DNA of 41,993 bases from a virus, in IMG/VR virus record IMGVR_UViG_3300021440_000055, positions 1 to 41,993 of that record; one strand, given 5' to 3'. A model generated the notes under the pieces. That model worked only from the letters and a program-made list of their open reading frames with translations, searched no databases and was not told where the DNA came from. Numbering within the stretch: position 1 is the stretch's first letter; each line of letters starts with the position of its first letter. Below, in pieces: positions 34,392 through 39,252 of this stretch. Position numbers and translations under genes: made by a program.

Positions 34392-35062
34392 GCCTTCTCC
34401 AAAAGGAAGTAAGATGCCCCGCCCCCACGACGCCATTTGGTCACCTTGTACCCGTACTGTAGATTCATGTACATGTCAAAGTATTCGTGGTAATTCTGAG
34501 GCGTGGGCTTCTCAGGGAAGAATTCCTTGTAAGCAGCCGTGTGGTTCTCCAGATGGCACCAATAGGAGCCGACGTCAGCGATGTAGATGTAGCTAGGCTC
34601 GCTGGCCACGATGTCGTCCATCAGCTTCTTCTTGCGCTTGTCCCGCCACATCTTGGGGAGGGTATTGTCGGAGAACTCGCAGATGATCAAGTCATACAAA
34701 GAGTAATCCCTGGGAGTGTACATATCCTCCAGCTTGGGGAACACTGCGGGTTGCTCAAGAAACACAGGAGAGCACGCCGGGTCGAGCTCAATGGAGTACC
34801 ACCGGCGGGCCTGGATCAACGGCTGGACGCATGCCGCCACTAGGCCGATGCCGCCACATAGCTCGATGACGTCCATACCCTTCGGCAATTCCTCCAGAAG
34901 CTCTGTGACGCAATTCAGGTACGCCTCGGTCTGGTGGGGGTTCTTGAAGCAGTAGTACAGCGGGTGGCCCCCATCAAGCAGCTTTGGGTCCGCCTCGACG
35001 CCTGGTGGAAGTGTTAGGGTAAGGTCCTGGTACTTCAGCTTAAGTGTGACGGAGGTTCTCAT
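34388..35062 (-). CDS. SAM-dependent methyltransferase-like protein
   Basis: This 224-residue protein has a class I methyltransferase core: VIELCGGIGLVAACV (about 65-79, SAM-binding motif I) and WYSIELDPAC (acidic residue binding ribose). The following strand is YDLIICEFSDN. There is no DPPY or NPPY, so it does not look like a standard adenine or cytosine DNA methylase. In this setting it may decorate the modified base, or modify protein. It is coupled to both neighbours by ATGA overlaps. Confidence 0.75.
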   Translation of the reverse strand: MRTSVTLKLKYQDLTLTLPPGVEADPKLLDGGHPLYYCFKNPHQTEAYLNCVTELLEELPKGMDVIELCGGIGLVAACVQPLIQARRWYSIELDPACSPVFLEQPAVFPKLEDMYTPRDYSLYDLIICEFSDNTLPKMWRDKRKKKLMDDIVASEPSYIYIADVGSYWCHLENHTAAYKEFFPEKPTPQNYHEYFDMYMNLQYGYKVTKWRRGGGASYFLLEKA

Positions 35063-35502
35063 GCGGAGTACTCCACTTCAGCGGCGAACGATGGCTCCGT
35101 CCACTCCCCCTCAGGGGTGGACTCGGGCATGTTTTCCAAGGCGGCGAGCATACGGCTTATGCCGTGCCGAGTCAGATGAGGGAACCGGATGAGGTACTCC
35201 GTACACATGTCCTGGGCGAAGAACACGAGCCACGAATAGTTGGCGTCATTCTGGATCGCCCATTGGGACCACGGATGGCACAGGTCGTTGGGGCCGAACA
35301 CGTTGGCGCCGTTCAGCGTGTAGTGAAGTGTCCCCTTCCCTCCGGTGGCCTTGGTCTTGGTCAAAGCTTGGGGCTCCAGCAGGTGCCATGCGTTGGAGAG
35401 GAAGATACAAGCTCGGATGGGGCCAGTAATGAGCCAGTCATTGCTGAGGGTTTTCACCAGCGTAGCGGTGTCACGCCCTGGGTAAATCAGTTCAACGGAC
35501 AT
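35059..35502 (-). CDS. Phage protein resembling pyrimidine-dimer-glycosylase-like family
   Basis: This 147-residue protein has IRACIFLSNAWHLLEPQAL (about 29-47) and CHPWSQWAIQNDANYSWLVF (about 75-94), then MCTEYLIRF. The H-P-x-x-x-W-A-x-x-N-x-x-N-Y-x-W-L motif is shared by a family of small phage proteins sometimes named for pyrimidine dimer DNA glycosylases, though activity is unproven for most. GGAG precedes the ATG. A role in handling modified or damaged bases would suit the cluster. Confidence 0.6.
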   Translation of the reverse strand: MSVELIYPGRDTATLVKTLSNDWLITGPIRACIFLSNAWHLLEPQALTKTKATGGKGTLHYTLNGANVFGPNDLCHPWSQWAIQNDANYSWLVFFAQDMCTEYLIRFPHLTRHGISRMLAALENMPESTPEGEWTEPSFAAEVEYSA

Positions 35503-35531
35503 ACGTTCTCCAAAGGGGTGGGGAGCTTCTA

Positions 35532-36893
35532 TTATAGCTCGGGCATCGTCTTCAGGGCGAGATTTAGCCTGTTCTGGGTGGCATCCTTATCAGCGAGCGT
35601 CTTGACCACGTCCACGTCTTTGGTGCTCTTCGCCACGATATGGTGACACGAGACCACCGGCGAGGGCTGGCCCTGGCGCCAGACGCGGGCGATGGCCTGC
35701 TGGTAAAGCTCCAGGTCCCACGTGATGCCGTACCAGCAGATGTCCTTACACGCCTCTTGGAGATTCAGGCCGTGGCCCATCGACTTCGGGTGGCCGATCA
35801 TAATGGGCACCTTACCCTCGTTGAAGCGACGGATGGTATCCGTGACGTTATTGCTATCGCTGATGTTGATGGCGATGGGGAAGTGGTTCAGGATGCGGGC
35901 TGCGTCCTCGATGAATTCGTAGCAGATGAGCAAGGGCCGACCCTGCATTTCCTCCACCAGTTCCTCCAGAGCCTTCAGCTTCTCGTCATGGATGTGGATA
36001 GCGATGTGGTCCTCATCGTAGATGAACCCGTTGGCTACCTGCCGGAGCTTGACCCCCAGAGCCGCCGTGTTGAACACCGCCACCGTTTCGTCCTGTAGCT
36101 TCAGGATAAAGTCCCGCTCCAGAATCTTGTACTGCTTCAGTACCGGGGGGGACAACTCGATCTCAATGTAGTTATTGATGAGCTCCGGCATCTCAAGGTG
36201 GTCTACTGCCATCATTCTCAGTAGCTTGGGTCTGACTCTCTCGTATATGCTGTGTTCTGCCCCCGGCGATAGGAGCCAGGAGAAACCATCGTGGCTTTGA
36301 TACATATACCTCTGCCGGAAGTGTGTGATGAACTTCCCCAGGCTCGTGCCCATGTCGCAAACGAACATCTGGCCAAAGAGGTCAGCAAGACCATTTGGTG
36401 CGGGGGTACCAGTGAGGATGACTCGTCGTGCAAACTTGTGTAGATGCTTCTTAAGCGCCTTGAACCTCTGAGTCTGTGTGCCTTTGAACTTTGTGCTCTC
36501 ATCAACGACGAGCATGTCAAAGGGCGTACCAAGCGCCCACGGATCGAGCTCAAGGATGCGGACGAGCGACTCAGGATTGATGACGTACACAAGGTGCTTC
36601 TCCTTCAACCGTTCGATGCGTTCCTCACGCGTCATTTCTGTTAGGTCGCATATAGACATGTGGGAGAAGTCCTCCCACTTCTCCGCCTCGACGGGCCACA
36701 CTGTTTTGGCGACCCGCAGGGGGGCTACCACCAGCACGTGATGAATGTGCCCCCCAGAGTGTAGAGTGTCGATAGCTGCCAGAGTCGTGCTGGTCTTGCC
36801 CAGGCCAACTAACCAGGGTCGAGCAATAGTCCGCAGTGGGGCTTTTCTACAAGCCACTCCAAGGACGTAAGCTGGTACGCCCTGGGATTCCAC
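35532..36893 (-). CDS. SNF2-type helicase, main body (frame-offset N-terminus)
   Basis: The open frame of 453 codons holds helicase motifs from VGLGKTSTTL onward: motif I GLGKTS, motif II LVVDESTKFKG, motif III VILTGTPAPNG, and motif VI QAIARVWRQGQPSP. The family translocates on duplex DNA and is common beside phage DNA polymerase. The first 28 residues from the GTG at 36893 are out-of-frame translation of a normal helicase N-terminus found in the other frame (36809-36937). The genuine protein would need an 8-nt skip at 36804-36814, or it is inactive or truncated. Confidence 0.78.
   Translation of the reverse strand: MESQGVPAYVLGVACRKAPLRTIARPWLVGLGKTSTTLAAIDTLHSGGHIHHVLVVAPLRVAKTVWPVEAEKWEDFSHMSICDLTEMTREERIERLKEKHLVYVINPESLVRILELDPWALGTPFDMLVVDESTKFKGTQTQRFKALKKHLHKFARRVILTGTPAPNGLADLFGQMFVCDMGTSLGKFITHFRQRYMYQSHDGFSWLLSPGAEHSIYERVRPKLLRMMAVDHLEMPELINNYIEIELSPPVLKQYKILERDFILKLQDETVAVFNTAALGVKLRQVANGFIYDEDHIAIHIHDEKLKALEELVEEMQGRPLLICYEFIEDAARILNHFPIAINISDSNNVTDTIRRFNEGKVPIMIGHPKSMGHGLNLQEACKDICWYGITWDLELYQQAIARVWRQGQPSPVVSCHHIVAKSTKDVDVVKTLADKDATQNRLNLALKTMPEL
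36804..36814 (-). other. Candidate ribosomal bypass or scar site in helicase Walker A
   Basis: Read leftward: GGT (36812-36814), TAG stop, TT, GGC (36804-36806), then CTG GGC AAG ACC. If the Gly-tRNA leaves GGT and lands on GGC, the eight bases are skipped and DPG-LGKT is restored exactly. A matched Gly take-off/landing pair with UAG right after take-off is also how T4 gene 60 bypassing works. I see no clear hairpin, so a plain insertion scar is an equal alternative. Confidence 0.4.
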
Positions 36894-36937
36894 CTTATCG
36901 GACTAGGCTCAACCCTGGATGGGTTCTCCTTAGTCAT
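36809..36937 (-). CDS. Helicase N-terminus, second version, ends in UAG at Walker A
   Basis: This 42-codon frame starts with ATG at 36937, overlapping the HNH stop as ATGA. It reads RWNPRAYQLTSLEWLVEKPH then CGLLLDPG, the standard start of a SNF2 helicase up to the Walker A loop. UAG follows the Gly codon. The rest of Walker A (LGKT) continues eight bases out of step in the main helicase frame. It is about 70 percent alike at DNA level to the other N-terminal fragment at 37491-37562, so it is not a simple recent duplication. Confidence 0.7.
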   Translation of the reverse strand: MTKENPSRVEPSPIRWNPRAYQLTSLEWLVEKPHCGLLLDPG

Positions 36938-37488
36938 GATTGGTTCCATCGGTTTTTGCGAACAGATTCGGCTATTTGCGCCTTTATCTGCTCAGAATGA
37001 GTTTTACCGAACATGGGATGCTTATCGCCCGTCCTGCCGTAGCAGGGGGCAAGCTCACCCTTAGTTCCGTACATGGGATTTTTCTCGCCTGAGTAATTCT
37101 CTGATTGTTGCCTACACCTTTCTGGGGTCCAATAGCGGTTAGATATGCCCTTTTTAGAGGCGTCGAGTTGATTATCTCGGTTCGTTCCAAGCCAAAGATG
37201 GTCGGGATTTACGCAGGAGGGGCGGTCACAAGAGTGGCACACGAACAACCCTTTGGGCACTTCTCCTTTGTAAATCTGATAAGCAGCTATGTGGGCTCTC
37301 CAATGAACGTAGCTATTAGAGTTGACACCGTTTAGTATGCCGTACCCGTTTTCGGTCAACCTACCCGTCCACAGTAGGCAGTCCTCTTCCGGTCGCACCC
37401 TAATGCGCAGCTGCTCGATTACCAATACAAATATTTCGTCTCCAGTTCGCGGAGTCTTGGTATTGGCTGGGAGCTTGTAATTGTCCAT
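36934..37488 (-). CDS. HNH homing endonuclease with NUMOD3-like tail
   Basis: This 184-residue protein has the HNH core: CLLWTGRLTENGYGILNG (about 38-55), HWRAHIAAYQIYKGEVPKG (about 62-80) and VCHSCDRPSCVNPDHLWLGT (about 83-102), with the Cys residues as structural zinc ligands. The C-terminal part repeats G-x-x-NPMYG and GDKHPMFGKTHSE, the NUMOD3 DNA-binding style of free-standing homing enzymes. Its ATG lies inside the first helicase fragment and its stop overlaps the second helicase start. It probably invaded the helicase gene. Confidence 0.85.
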   Translation of the reverse strand: MDNYKLPANTKTPRTGDEIFVLVIEQLRIRVRPEEDCLLWTGRLTENGYGILNGVNSNSYVHWRAHIAAYQIYKGEVPKGLFVCHSCDRPSCVNPDHLWLGTNRDNQLDASKKGISNRYWTPERCRQQSENYSGEKNPMYGTKGELAPCYGRTGDKHPMFGKTHSEQIKAQIAESVRKNRWNQS

Positions 37489-37562
37489 CGGGGCTTCTCA
37501 ATAAGCCACTCCAGCGAGGTCTCTTGATATGGTCGCGGGGTCCAGGTCTGCGGGACGCTCAT
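37419..37562 (-). pseudogene. Helicase N-terminus, first version, cut by HNH insertion
   Basis: This 47-codon frame starts MSVPQTWTPRPYQETSLEWL then IEKPRW, matching the start of the resumed helicase (36809-36937). It then runs into the HNH gene and ends in unrelated residues at a TAA at 37419. The start lies inside the end of the transferase gene, as expected for the original uninterrupted helicase gene in a dense operon. It marks where the HNH cassette entered. Confidence 0.7.
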
Positions 37563-38331
37563 ACTTGCTCCAATCTTGTTTGGTGGGCAGATACTTGTGG
37601 AACTCAGGGAACTTGCGTAGTTGCTCCCACTTGGAGTCAACGTCGTCGCCAATGGTGTGGGTCTTGGTGATCCCCCAACCTTTGAGCATACACAGGATGG
37701 TCTCCGCTTCTGGGAGTCCACACTTGCGGTCGGGAGCCCCTGGGGCGACCATATCACGGATATTGTAAGCGATGCTCTCCATGACGTAACCGAACTTGAA
37801 CTCAGGCCAGAGGGCCTTGGCGCACTTGCGAGGCTCGTCAGGGCAGTGGCGTTCTGCCTCGGCCCGAGTGAGGCTGATCGGTCGCTCAAAGACGCGATCT
37901 TGGAAATCCATGACCTTCCAGATGAAGTATGGCCCGAATCCGCACCCCTTGAAGTGGGAGTTGAAGACGCTCACCAGACCGGTGTAGCTGGGAGAGTACA
38001 TCGCTTTCATGGTGTCTCGGGGGGTGCCCTTCTTGGACAACTCCGTGACGTAGCGCAGACCGAGCTCACCCCTGGTATGGCGTCGCTCTGTACCCCTGGG
38101 AAATGCGGTATAGTTGTCCAGCACGTAGCTCCAAAAGTCAGTCTCTCCTGTGTCCCGAGCCGCCGCCAGCGCCCCTCCCATGTCGTAGAAGCAAAGATAG
38201 TGGACCGAGAATCTGTTGGCCCAGTCGTTGCCTAGCTCCATCCGGGCACGGTAGAGGAAGTCATAGGTGGGGTCCAGGTCGTGAGTTTCCACTGTTACCC
38301 TGGCGAAGTCTCTCCAATTCTTTATCAACAT
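37498..38331 (-). CDS. Amino acid:DNA transferase-like hypermodification protein
   Basis: This 277-residue protein starts MLIKNWRDFARVTVETHDLD. Recognisable sections are DPTYDFLYRARMELGNDW (20-37), FPRGTERRHTRGE, CGFGPYFIWKVMDFQDRVFE and PISLTRAEAERHCPDEPRKC. This order fits the phage family that includes amino acid:DNA transferases, thought to attach an amino acid or amine to activated 5-hydroxymethyluracil in DNA. Together with the kinase, helical-domain and synthase genes it completes a hypermodification set. The start overlaps the VRR-NUC gene; the ORF extends to 38364 without a better ribosome binding site. Confidence 0.72.
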   Translation of the reverse strand: MLIKNWRDFARVTVETHDLDPTYDFLYRARMELGNDWANRFSVHYLCFYDMGGALAAARDTGETDFWSYVLDNYTAFPRGTERRHTRGELGLRYVTELSKKGTPRDTMKAMYSPSYTGLVSVFNSHFKGCGFGPYFIWKVMDFQDRVFERPISLTRAEAERHCPDEPRKCAKALWPEFKFGYVMESIAYNIRDMVAPGAPDRKCGLPEAETILCMLKGWGITKTHTIGDDVDSKWEQLRKFPEFHKYLPTKQDWSKYERPADLDPATISRDLAGVAY

Positions 38332-38614
38332 TGTACGTCCATTCTTCCAAAAGAGTGATCCCATAGTCCTCGTTGTCCACTACGAACACGCAGGCCCCTG
38401 CTTTTCTCAGTTCTTCGTGAACGTGGGCTTGTAGGGGCGTTGGCTTCTCACCGGGTCTTTTGAACTCGATGAAGCAGATGCGGCCCCTGTACAGATAACC
38501 ATAGTCAGGCCACCCCTTCCGGCCCACTACGTTTATTCTAATTGAGATCAGGCCTTCGTAGTTTGCCCATATAGTGACACCCTCTTGGATCTCACGTTCT
38601 AAGCGGCTGGACAT
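38261..38614 (-). CDS. VRR-NUC domain nuclease
   Basis: This 117-residue protein starts MSSRLEREIQEGVTIWANYE. The catalytic core is GRKGWPDYGYLYRGRICFIE (about 30-49) followed by FKRPGEKPTPLQ: G-x-PD, then E-x-K, then a Q-x-x-H helix, the PD-(D/E)xK arrangement of VRR-NUC. Phage members probably act on branched or repair intermediates. It overlaps both neighbours and has AAGGGGGG before the ATG. Confidence 0.85.
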   Translation of the reverse strand: MSSRLEREIQEGVTIWANYEGLISIRINVVGRKGWPDYGYLYRGRICFIEFKRPGEKPTPLQAHVHEELRKAGACVFVVDNEDYGITLLEEWTYNVDKELERLRQGNSGNSRPGPHL

Positions 38615-39252
38615 GGGCCCCCCTTGCTTGCGGCGTAGTCGCACCAACGGCAAGCCCCGCCCGGATTGGGCAGGTAGTCGTTGTCGGCGAAGATGCGGAT
38701 AGCTCTGTCGTGCCAGGATTGGACCTTCTTGTCCATCATGTCTCCCCGGATGACGGCCCCCTCATTGGAGACGTGGCCGGTGTCGAGGTAAATGGCGCCA
38801 TACTCGGCCCGCTTGACGTCGGGGAACCGACATAGTCCAATGAGGGCATAGAGCTCCAGCTGGTCCCGGTGGTCGGGGTACTCCCGCCCTGACTTGAAGT
38901 CTCGGACGTGTAGCACGGTGTTGCCCTCTAGCCAGTGAACGTCCACGATGGCTTTAACCCAAGGGTTAACCATGTCGGGCTTCCACTTGTCGTCGAGGCA
39001 CCAGGTTTCCTCTGAGACGGCGCCCTTCATCTTCAGATCCATGAGGCGGGGGCCCATCTTCGACAGTTCCCAGGGGAGGACATGGGAGGATGTCTTGAGG
39101 AACTTCTCGCAGTCCAGGTGTAGCCTGCTCCCCCGCTCCATGGCGGCGCTCGCCTTGTAGGGAAGCTGATCAACGTATGAGTACTTCCACTTGGCGGGGC
39201 AGGACTCGTAGGTGGAGATGCTGGAGTAGGACCAGCGGGTTGGCTTATTCAC
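38599..39252 (-). CDS. Cas4/RecB-like PD-(D/E)xK exonuclease
   Basis: This 217-residue protein has WSYSSISTYESCPAKWKYSY (8-27) with the first Cys, ERGSRLHLDCEKFL with the His of the RecB motif, AIVDVHWLEG then VRDFKSGREYPDHRDQLELY (catalytic D-x-K and Q-x-x-x-Y), and a C-terminal CRWCDYAASKGGPC. The four Cys can hold an iron-sulphur cluster as in Cas4-type nucleases. It would resect DNA ends in phage recombination or repair. It overlaps the polymerase stop. Confidence 0.85.
   Translation of the reverse strand: MNKPTRWSYSSISTYESCPAKWKYSYVDQLPYKASAAMERGSRLHLDCEKFLKTSSHVLPWELSKMGPRLMDLKMKGAVSEETWCLDDKWKPDMVNPWVKAIVDVHWLEGNTVLHVRDFKSGREYPDHRDQLELYALIGLCRFPDVKRAEYGAIYLDTGHVSNEGAVIRGDMMDKKVQSWHDRAIRIFADNDYLPNPGGACRWCDYAASKGGPCPAA

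Follow-up and report, generated by a model that had tools for sequence, protein, structure and literature searches.

Stop-hop inserts in the Walker A motif of phage helicases: candidate short translational bypass elements associated with HNH homing endonuclease genes

Efficient programmed bypassing is known essentially from gene 60 of phage T4 and from yeast mitochondria (PMC5009743). Gene 60 was split from gene 39 with mobA, and its 50-nucleotide (nt) gap begins with a stop after a Gly take-off codon and is closed by a matched landing codon (PMC5009743; PMC2988022). The mitochondrial byp elements of Magnusiomyces capitatus indicate that translational jumping tolerates short non-coding blocks in essential genes, the landing match being sometimes imperfect (PMC5009743). 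Synthetic stop-hops of +5 and +6 were described in E. coli by Weiss et al. in 1987, as far as that work is related in a 2016 review, which listed no known occurrences of natural in-frame stop hopping (PMC5009743). Here we report on an SNF2-type helicase gene whose Walker A motif is interrupted by a stop codon and an 8-nt insert, found in a viral DNA of 41,993 nt (IMG/VR record IMGVR_UViG_3300021440_000055, positions 1 to 41,993; hereafter the window), and on 47 further helicase loci with inserts of the same kind. No earlier report of stop-hop inserts in helicases was found in open-licence papers.

In the window, the helicase frame is read to LLLDPG, the last Gly codon being GGT, and TAG follows immediately. 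The Gly codon GGC stands exactly 8 nt beyond GGT, which equals the offset between the two parts of the helicase frame, and from there the sequence continues as CTG GGC AAG ACC (LGKT) in a frame that is open to the end of the gene. An earlier note on this DNA, made from the sequence alone, had described a helicase N-terminus cut by an HNH gene, a second, diverged N-terminus running to LLLDPG and a UAG, the rest of Walker A lying 8 nt out of frame, and GGT and GGC as a matched pair. The second N-terminus and the 8-nt offset were borne out as described. The cut N-terminus was also found, with the refinement that what remains of it is 26 codons long and ends before Walker A, and the GGT/GGC pair stands at the stated spacing as synonymous, not identical, codons. 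As the first N-terminus is such a short remnant, the HNH gene apparently arrived with a replacement N-terminus. The edges of the insert, TTAGTTGG, are ambiguous because GG is repeated.

The nearest helicase relatives (L002 and L004-L006, 71-76% identical) read GAYCCCGGCCTGGG without an insert, and L004-L006, which have no HNH gene, carry an unbroken MNAVPWNPRSYQEVALRWLMEKPHSGLLLDPGLGKT; the alignment with relatives lacking the HNH gene, which the earlier note had proposed, thus agrees with an insertion in the window. The closest relative of the window HNH protein (49% identity) is encoded at L066, directly upstream of another interrupted helicase, whose Walker A reads GAT CCG GGC TGA GTA GGC CTA GGT AAA ACG (DPG-TGA-V-GLGKT) with GGC on both sides of the stop. 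Beside another HNH gene, an insert of the same kind thus stands at L066, and with the 46 further helicases described below the arrangement goes beyond chance; the exact 8-nt sequence has no other copy in the viral contigs.

Altogether, 48 distinct helicase loci with an insert of 4-9 nt at Walker A were collected (the window, L066 and 46 others), from isolates, prophages, annotated phages and metagenomes. Of the 64 helicases related to that of the window, two are interrupted, L016 (CTT TAG CTT) and L026 (CTG TGA CTG). A scan for the exact pattern DMG-Leu-stop-Leu-GKT returned 14 viral contigs, every one a helicase with the frame open past the stop, and the same pattern in genomes gave five true cases, in Salimicrobium halophilum DSM 4771, Planococcus sp. 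A6, Enterococcus timonensis, a record named Enterococcus faecalis 13-SD-W-01 and Eubacterium callanderi FD. Prophage helicases from four samples of bacterial genomes, which included further Gly types, were interrupted in 15 of roughly 130 cases, a hand count for which sequence-level reading was confined in one sample to flagged loci. Among annotated phages, interrupted helicases occur in Paenibacillus phage Pd_22F, Fusobacterium phage phiPaco, Erysipelothrix phage phi1605, Streptococcus phage Javan422 and several gut phages; in the first searches of annotated phages, all relatives among the rows that could be judged were uninterrupted, and the interrupted ones surfaced with Gly-type queries. 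About 111-115 uninterrupted relatives served for comparison.

Several candidates were rejected on inspection. L171, a hit of the genome scan, lies in non-coding sequence and matches by chance; in L296-L299, L391, L406 and L411 the flagged stop precedes the start codon; L383, whose record is unverified, has a 1-nt deletion; and the frame break of L325 is located elsewhere. Two observations concern more distant helicases. At L199:4300-4350, a Gly-stop-Gly insert (GGC TAA GGC) lies in an SNF2-type helicase of another, longer kind, whose frame stays open for 950 codons past the insert. The Leu-stop-Leu inserts of L158, L160 and L163 belong to a third group of helicases, which is divergent and placed on a very long branch of the tree.

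The inserts follow a common design. The step is 6 nt at 30 loci, 5 nt at 10, 4 nt at four, 9 nt at two, 7 nt at one and 8 nt in the window. A stop codon stands directly 3′ of a Gly or Leu take-off codon in 47 of the 48 (21 TAG, 18 TGA, 8 TAA), and at 42 loci a synonymous landing codon restores D[MP]GLGKT. The take-off codon is GGT at 29 loci, CTT at 13, and CTG and GGC at three each. Compared with uninterrupted genes, GGT is enriched (29/32 Gly-type loci against 57/233 Gly codons in uninterrupted Walker A sites, p=3e-13) and so is CTT (13/16 against 30/101 at the same position, p=1e-4), in tests that treat related sequences as independent, as does the HNH test given below. The proposed hop site lies roughly 30-42 codons from the start.

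We consider that the insert is probably a very short translational bypass ('stop-hop') element, likely to be kept because it destroys the target of a homing endonuclease. In the window, the ribosome would read to LLLDPG with GGT and face UAG in the A site; peptidyl-tRNA-Gly would release, the mRNA would slip by 8 nt, and the tRNA would re-pair with GGC, so that decoding would restart at CTG and yield a normal Walker A, DPGLGKT. The other phage helicases would use the same design with steps of 4-9 nt and take-off from GGT (Gly) or from CTT or CTG (Leu). The conserved Walker A DNA would be the target of the next-door HNH homing endonuclease, and the insert would destroy this target at small cost to the protein. 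We infer both the hop and its efficiency from the sequences, and protection from HNH cleavage would most economically explain why the insert is kept. For the family as a whole, we lean, somewhat less firmly, towards natural stop-hopping as a common and repeatedly evolved way to keep a Walker A insert that resists homing endonucleases, the hops of 4-9 nt covering all three frames and starting from easily released take-off codons (GGU, CUU).

For a single genome, a premature stop in Walker A reads most simply as a mutation that inactivates a helicase which is decaying or dispensable, and homing cassettes can damage their neighbours. However, purifying selection on the codons past the stop is strong. 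In nearly all complete cases ~400-440 codons remain open past it, and the ratio of nonsynonymous to synonymous substitution rates (dN/dS) in this part is 0.02-0.28 where it could be estimated, i.e., where synonymous sites are unsaturated. Pairs of loci with a shared insert also give low ratios (0.05 for L262/L331 and 0.11 for L340/L341). In the Gly-stop-Gly clade (10 rows forming one tree group), the changes cluster at third codon positions to either side of the stop, and the stop switches between TAG and TAA and is never lost; stop and landing codon are retained through saturated synonymous change. Nor is the branch of the window accelerated, its helicase having 30 unique amino acid changes against 31 in its intact sister L002. 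Together with the restriction of 6-nt inserts to the stop-hop form (see below), these results make a dead gene an unlikely explanation. Counted on well-supported branches, the helicase tree has at least 22 changes in whether an insert is present. These are gains, losses or transfers and need not be separate inventions, because the N-terminal segment is mobile between phages.

Readthrough of the stop or an ordinary frameshift would also join the two parts, giving a Walker A with extra residues. Thirty of the inserts (6 nt), and the two of 9 nt, are indeed in frame, a −1 shift before the stop of the window would yield DPG-LVGLGKT, and the 4-nt class GGT TGAC AAA ACC, found in the diverse helicases of L340, L341, L379 and L413, has no matched landing codon and resembles a prfB-like +1 shift site; these four could in fact be +1 shifts. 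Steps of 4, 5, 7 and 8 nt require a change of frame, so readthrough alone cannot explain the inserts in general. Moreover, the extra residues would fall inside the P-loop, where sense-codon inserts of 6 nt appear to be absent. When any 6 nt were allowed between DMG and LGKT, the scan returned 94 stretches, in which every insert in a true Walker A consists of a stop and a duplicated codon (Leu-stop-Leu or, as a class not met before, Gly-stop-Gly) and none consists of sense codons; the corresponding scan of Asp-Pro-Gly helicases gave no 6-nt Walker A insert of any kind. The duplicated codon is also left unexplained by readthrough or frameshifting, and we regard this alternative as improbable, if the least so of those considered here.

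An HNH gene stands directly upstream in 11/35 interrupted and 2/111 uninterrupted helicases (p=2e-6); these upstream genes are Pfam-supported except that of L160, which was identified by motif only. Annotated HNH genes also lie directly upstream in Pd_22F and NatCom_29429. The proteins are of several types (zinc-finger HNH_3, NUMOD3, NUMOD4), which suggests repeated recruitment. In L026/L053 and L166/L261, an upstream segment has been exchanged between close relatives with both flanks matching, and the differences between close relatives that have the insert and those that lack it fall mainly in the stretch from the upstream gene to Walker A. This pattern is expected if the HNH gene, the leader, the first helicase codons and the insert were co-converted, with subsequent loss of the HNH gene in some cases. 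In pairwise comparisons, interrupted loci resemble each other more in the codons before the insert than in those after it, and the reverse is found in uninterrupted ones. Judging from these sequence comparisons, a single mobile unit seems to comprise the HNH gene, helicase codons 1 to ~37 and the insert, and the HNH gene is often lost from it later.

Homing could also have left the inserts as mere repair scars, made when an HNH cut in Walker A was repaired in an error-prone way and implying no bypass. All inserts fall close together, within a short stretch, and near-tandem duplications occur among them (TTAGG TTAGG in L300). Such repair would be expected to give random lengths and codons, whereas the stop position and the take-off and landing codons are constrained and the gene past the insert is still under selection. 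A scar may nonetheless be the origin of each insert; as the whole explanation it is decidedly unlikely.

An extended Shine-Dalgarno sequence (>=7 nt) precedes 27/35 interrupted and 16/111 uninterrupted helicases, a difference that also holds when the sampled genomes are taken by themselves (p=1e-5). Very long ones (e.g. AAGGAGGTGAT) stand just before the helicase start in, for instance, L300, L301, L335 and L166 and are rare in uninterrupted relatives. The long Shine-Dalgarno may offset a low hop rate or replace a lost coupling to the upstream gene. Another observation was that L020, L339, L292-L294, L330 and L342 have DCGLGK or ECGLGK instead of DMGLGK; L020 has an upstream HNH gene and L339 the truncated start of a similar one. 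This point change may be another escape from HNH cutting.

A sequencing or assembly error in the window would account for an 8-nt insert that is unique in its exact sequence. It is very unlikely, as the position, the stop and the design of the flanking codons are shared with 47 loci from independent projects, isolate genomes among them, and the closest HNH relative, L066, shows the same arrangement. Least probable of all is a split protein, made if translation ended at the stop and began anew immediately past it, giving two pieces that assemble. Pipelines do annotate two genes in Fusobacterium phage phiPaco and Christensenellales phage NatCom_6392. Nevertheless, the break falls inside the Walker A motif, no conserved start codon adjoins it, and the codons from the stop to the first usable starts (LGKTVSTLTA) are conserved.

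Certain findings weigh against the stop-hop interpretation. Six of the 48 loci lack a matched landing codon (four have GAC at +4 and two AGN at +5), and in L302 (2070-2110, minus strand) a 5-nt Walker A insert has CTG in place of the stop (GGT CTG GA) with the frame intact beyond it. Folding z-scores show no difference between interrupted and uninterrupted loci, so that no local RNA structure marks the site. Most interrupted loci now have no adjacent HNH gene, the codon and HNH tests treat related sequences as independent, and the window insert itself is without a second copy. Taken together, the results uphold the proposal of a short gene 60-like cassette through the number of loci, their stop and landing codons, purifying selection and the HNH association. 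For the group, a dead gene, a scar or an assembly error, the alternatives raised in the earlier note, are unlikely; for the window by itself they are weakened to a lesser degree, because its exact insert was found nowhere else.

The features of the window locus are collected in Table 1. The ADDT-like gene (amino acid:DNA transferase) overlaps the helicase N-terminal remnant with its 3′ end, and the presence of this family suggests that the phage may carry modified DNA bases. The HNH protein matches HNH_3 (PF13392, E=5.5e-10) and NUMOD3 (PF07460, E=2.4e-8), and the helicase matches the DNA helicase family phrog_62 (E=5.6e-124). No phage tRNA genes were found in the window. A group I intron or other known RNA was considered and rejected: no hit at the locus exceeded the threshold, positions 34500-39000 gave no Rfam intron match even at E up to 5, and splicing of the remnant onto LGKT would drop GLLLDPG. 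In L002 and L003, a different open reading frame (ORF) lies between the ADDT-like gene and the helicase, in which Walker A is unbroken. This ORF (L002:3504-3911 and its counterpart in L003) starts with MSAVRWSPRE, resembling a helicase N-terminus, and continues with zinc-finger-like motifs; it is possibly another homing insertion beside an unbroken helicase.

Table 1. Features of the interrupted helicase locus (positions in the window)
Feature	Position	Strand	Basis
ADDT-like gene (amino acid:DNA transferase), upstream	37498..38364	-	Pfam ADDT PF18724 E=9e-7; phrog_6364
Helicase N-terminal remnant MSVPQTWTPRPYQETSLEWLIEKPRW, 26 codons, stops before Walker A	37485..37562	-	matches N-termini of L004-L006
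Free-standing HNH homing endonuclease gene, HNH_3 + NUMOD3, 184 aa	36934..37488	-	Pfam
Second, diverged helicase N-terminus MTKEN...GLLLDPG, including take-off codon	36812..36937	-	
Proposed take-off codon GGT (Gly)	36812..36814	-	
In-frame stop TAG immediately 3′ of take-off codon	36809..36811	-	
TT between TAG and GGC	36807-36808	-	
8-nt insert	36805..36812	-	comparison with L002, L004-L006
Proposed landing codon GGC (Gly), +8 from take-off	36804..36806	-	
Remaining SNF2-type helicase, GLGKT... to stop, open frame	35532..36806	-	Pfam SNF2-rel_dom + Helicase_C

With dozens of candidates that vary in step, frame, codon and stop, several of them in isolate genomes, the rules of hopping become directly testable. 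If the stop-hop interpretation is true, it would explain the continued selection on helicases that look broken, it would make homing endonucleases a possible driving force of change in decoding, and it would correct annotations that now omit the N-terminus and Walker A of the interrupted helicases.

The likeness to T4 gene 60 extends to several features. In both, an HNH-type gene stands beside a split or interrupted gene of DNA metabolism (here at the 11 of 35 helicases), a stop follows the Gly take-off codon directly (GGT TAG in the window, with a stop at 47 of 48 loci), the landing codon is matched (42 of 48, the window pair being synonymous), and the gap is missing from homologues with both frames intact (here L002, L004-L006). 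Protection of the DNA from a nuclease has been proposed for gene 60 and would apply here as well. The gaps are 4-9 nt and not 50, the take-off and 5′ stem-loops of gene 60 have no counterpart in enriched RNA structure, and there are many parallel candidate cases with Gly or Leu take-off, in the Walker A of an SNF2 helicase and not in a topoisomerase. The free-standing phage HNH homing endonucleases mobA and mobE likewise carry an HNH domain (here HNH_3 with NUMOD), are placed between or into conserved phage genes and co-convert their flanks; unlike there, the presumed target-protecting change here is a stop-hop insert in the neighbouring gene. The byp elements of Magnusiomyces capitatus are mitochondrial and spread over many genes, whereas the present inserts occupy one codon neighbourhood in one phage helicase family and are linked to HNH genes. 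A further parallel is the stop-hop of Weiss et al., in which matched codons flank one stop and 9 nt are read as one amino acid. The 30 loci with 6-nt inserts share this layout and the window would be its 8-nt version; unlike in those constructs, stop-hopping here looks natural, recurrent and conserved.
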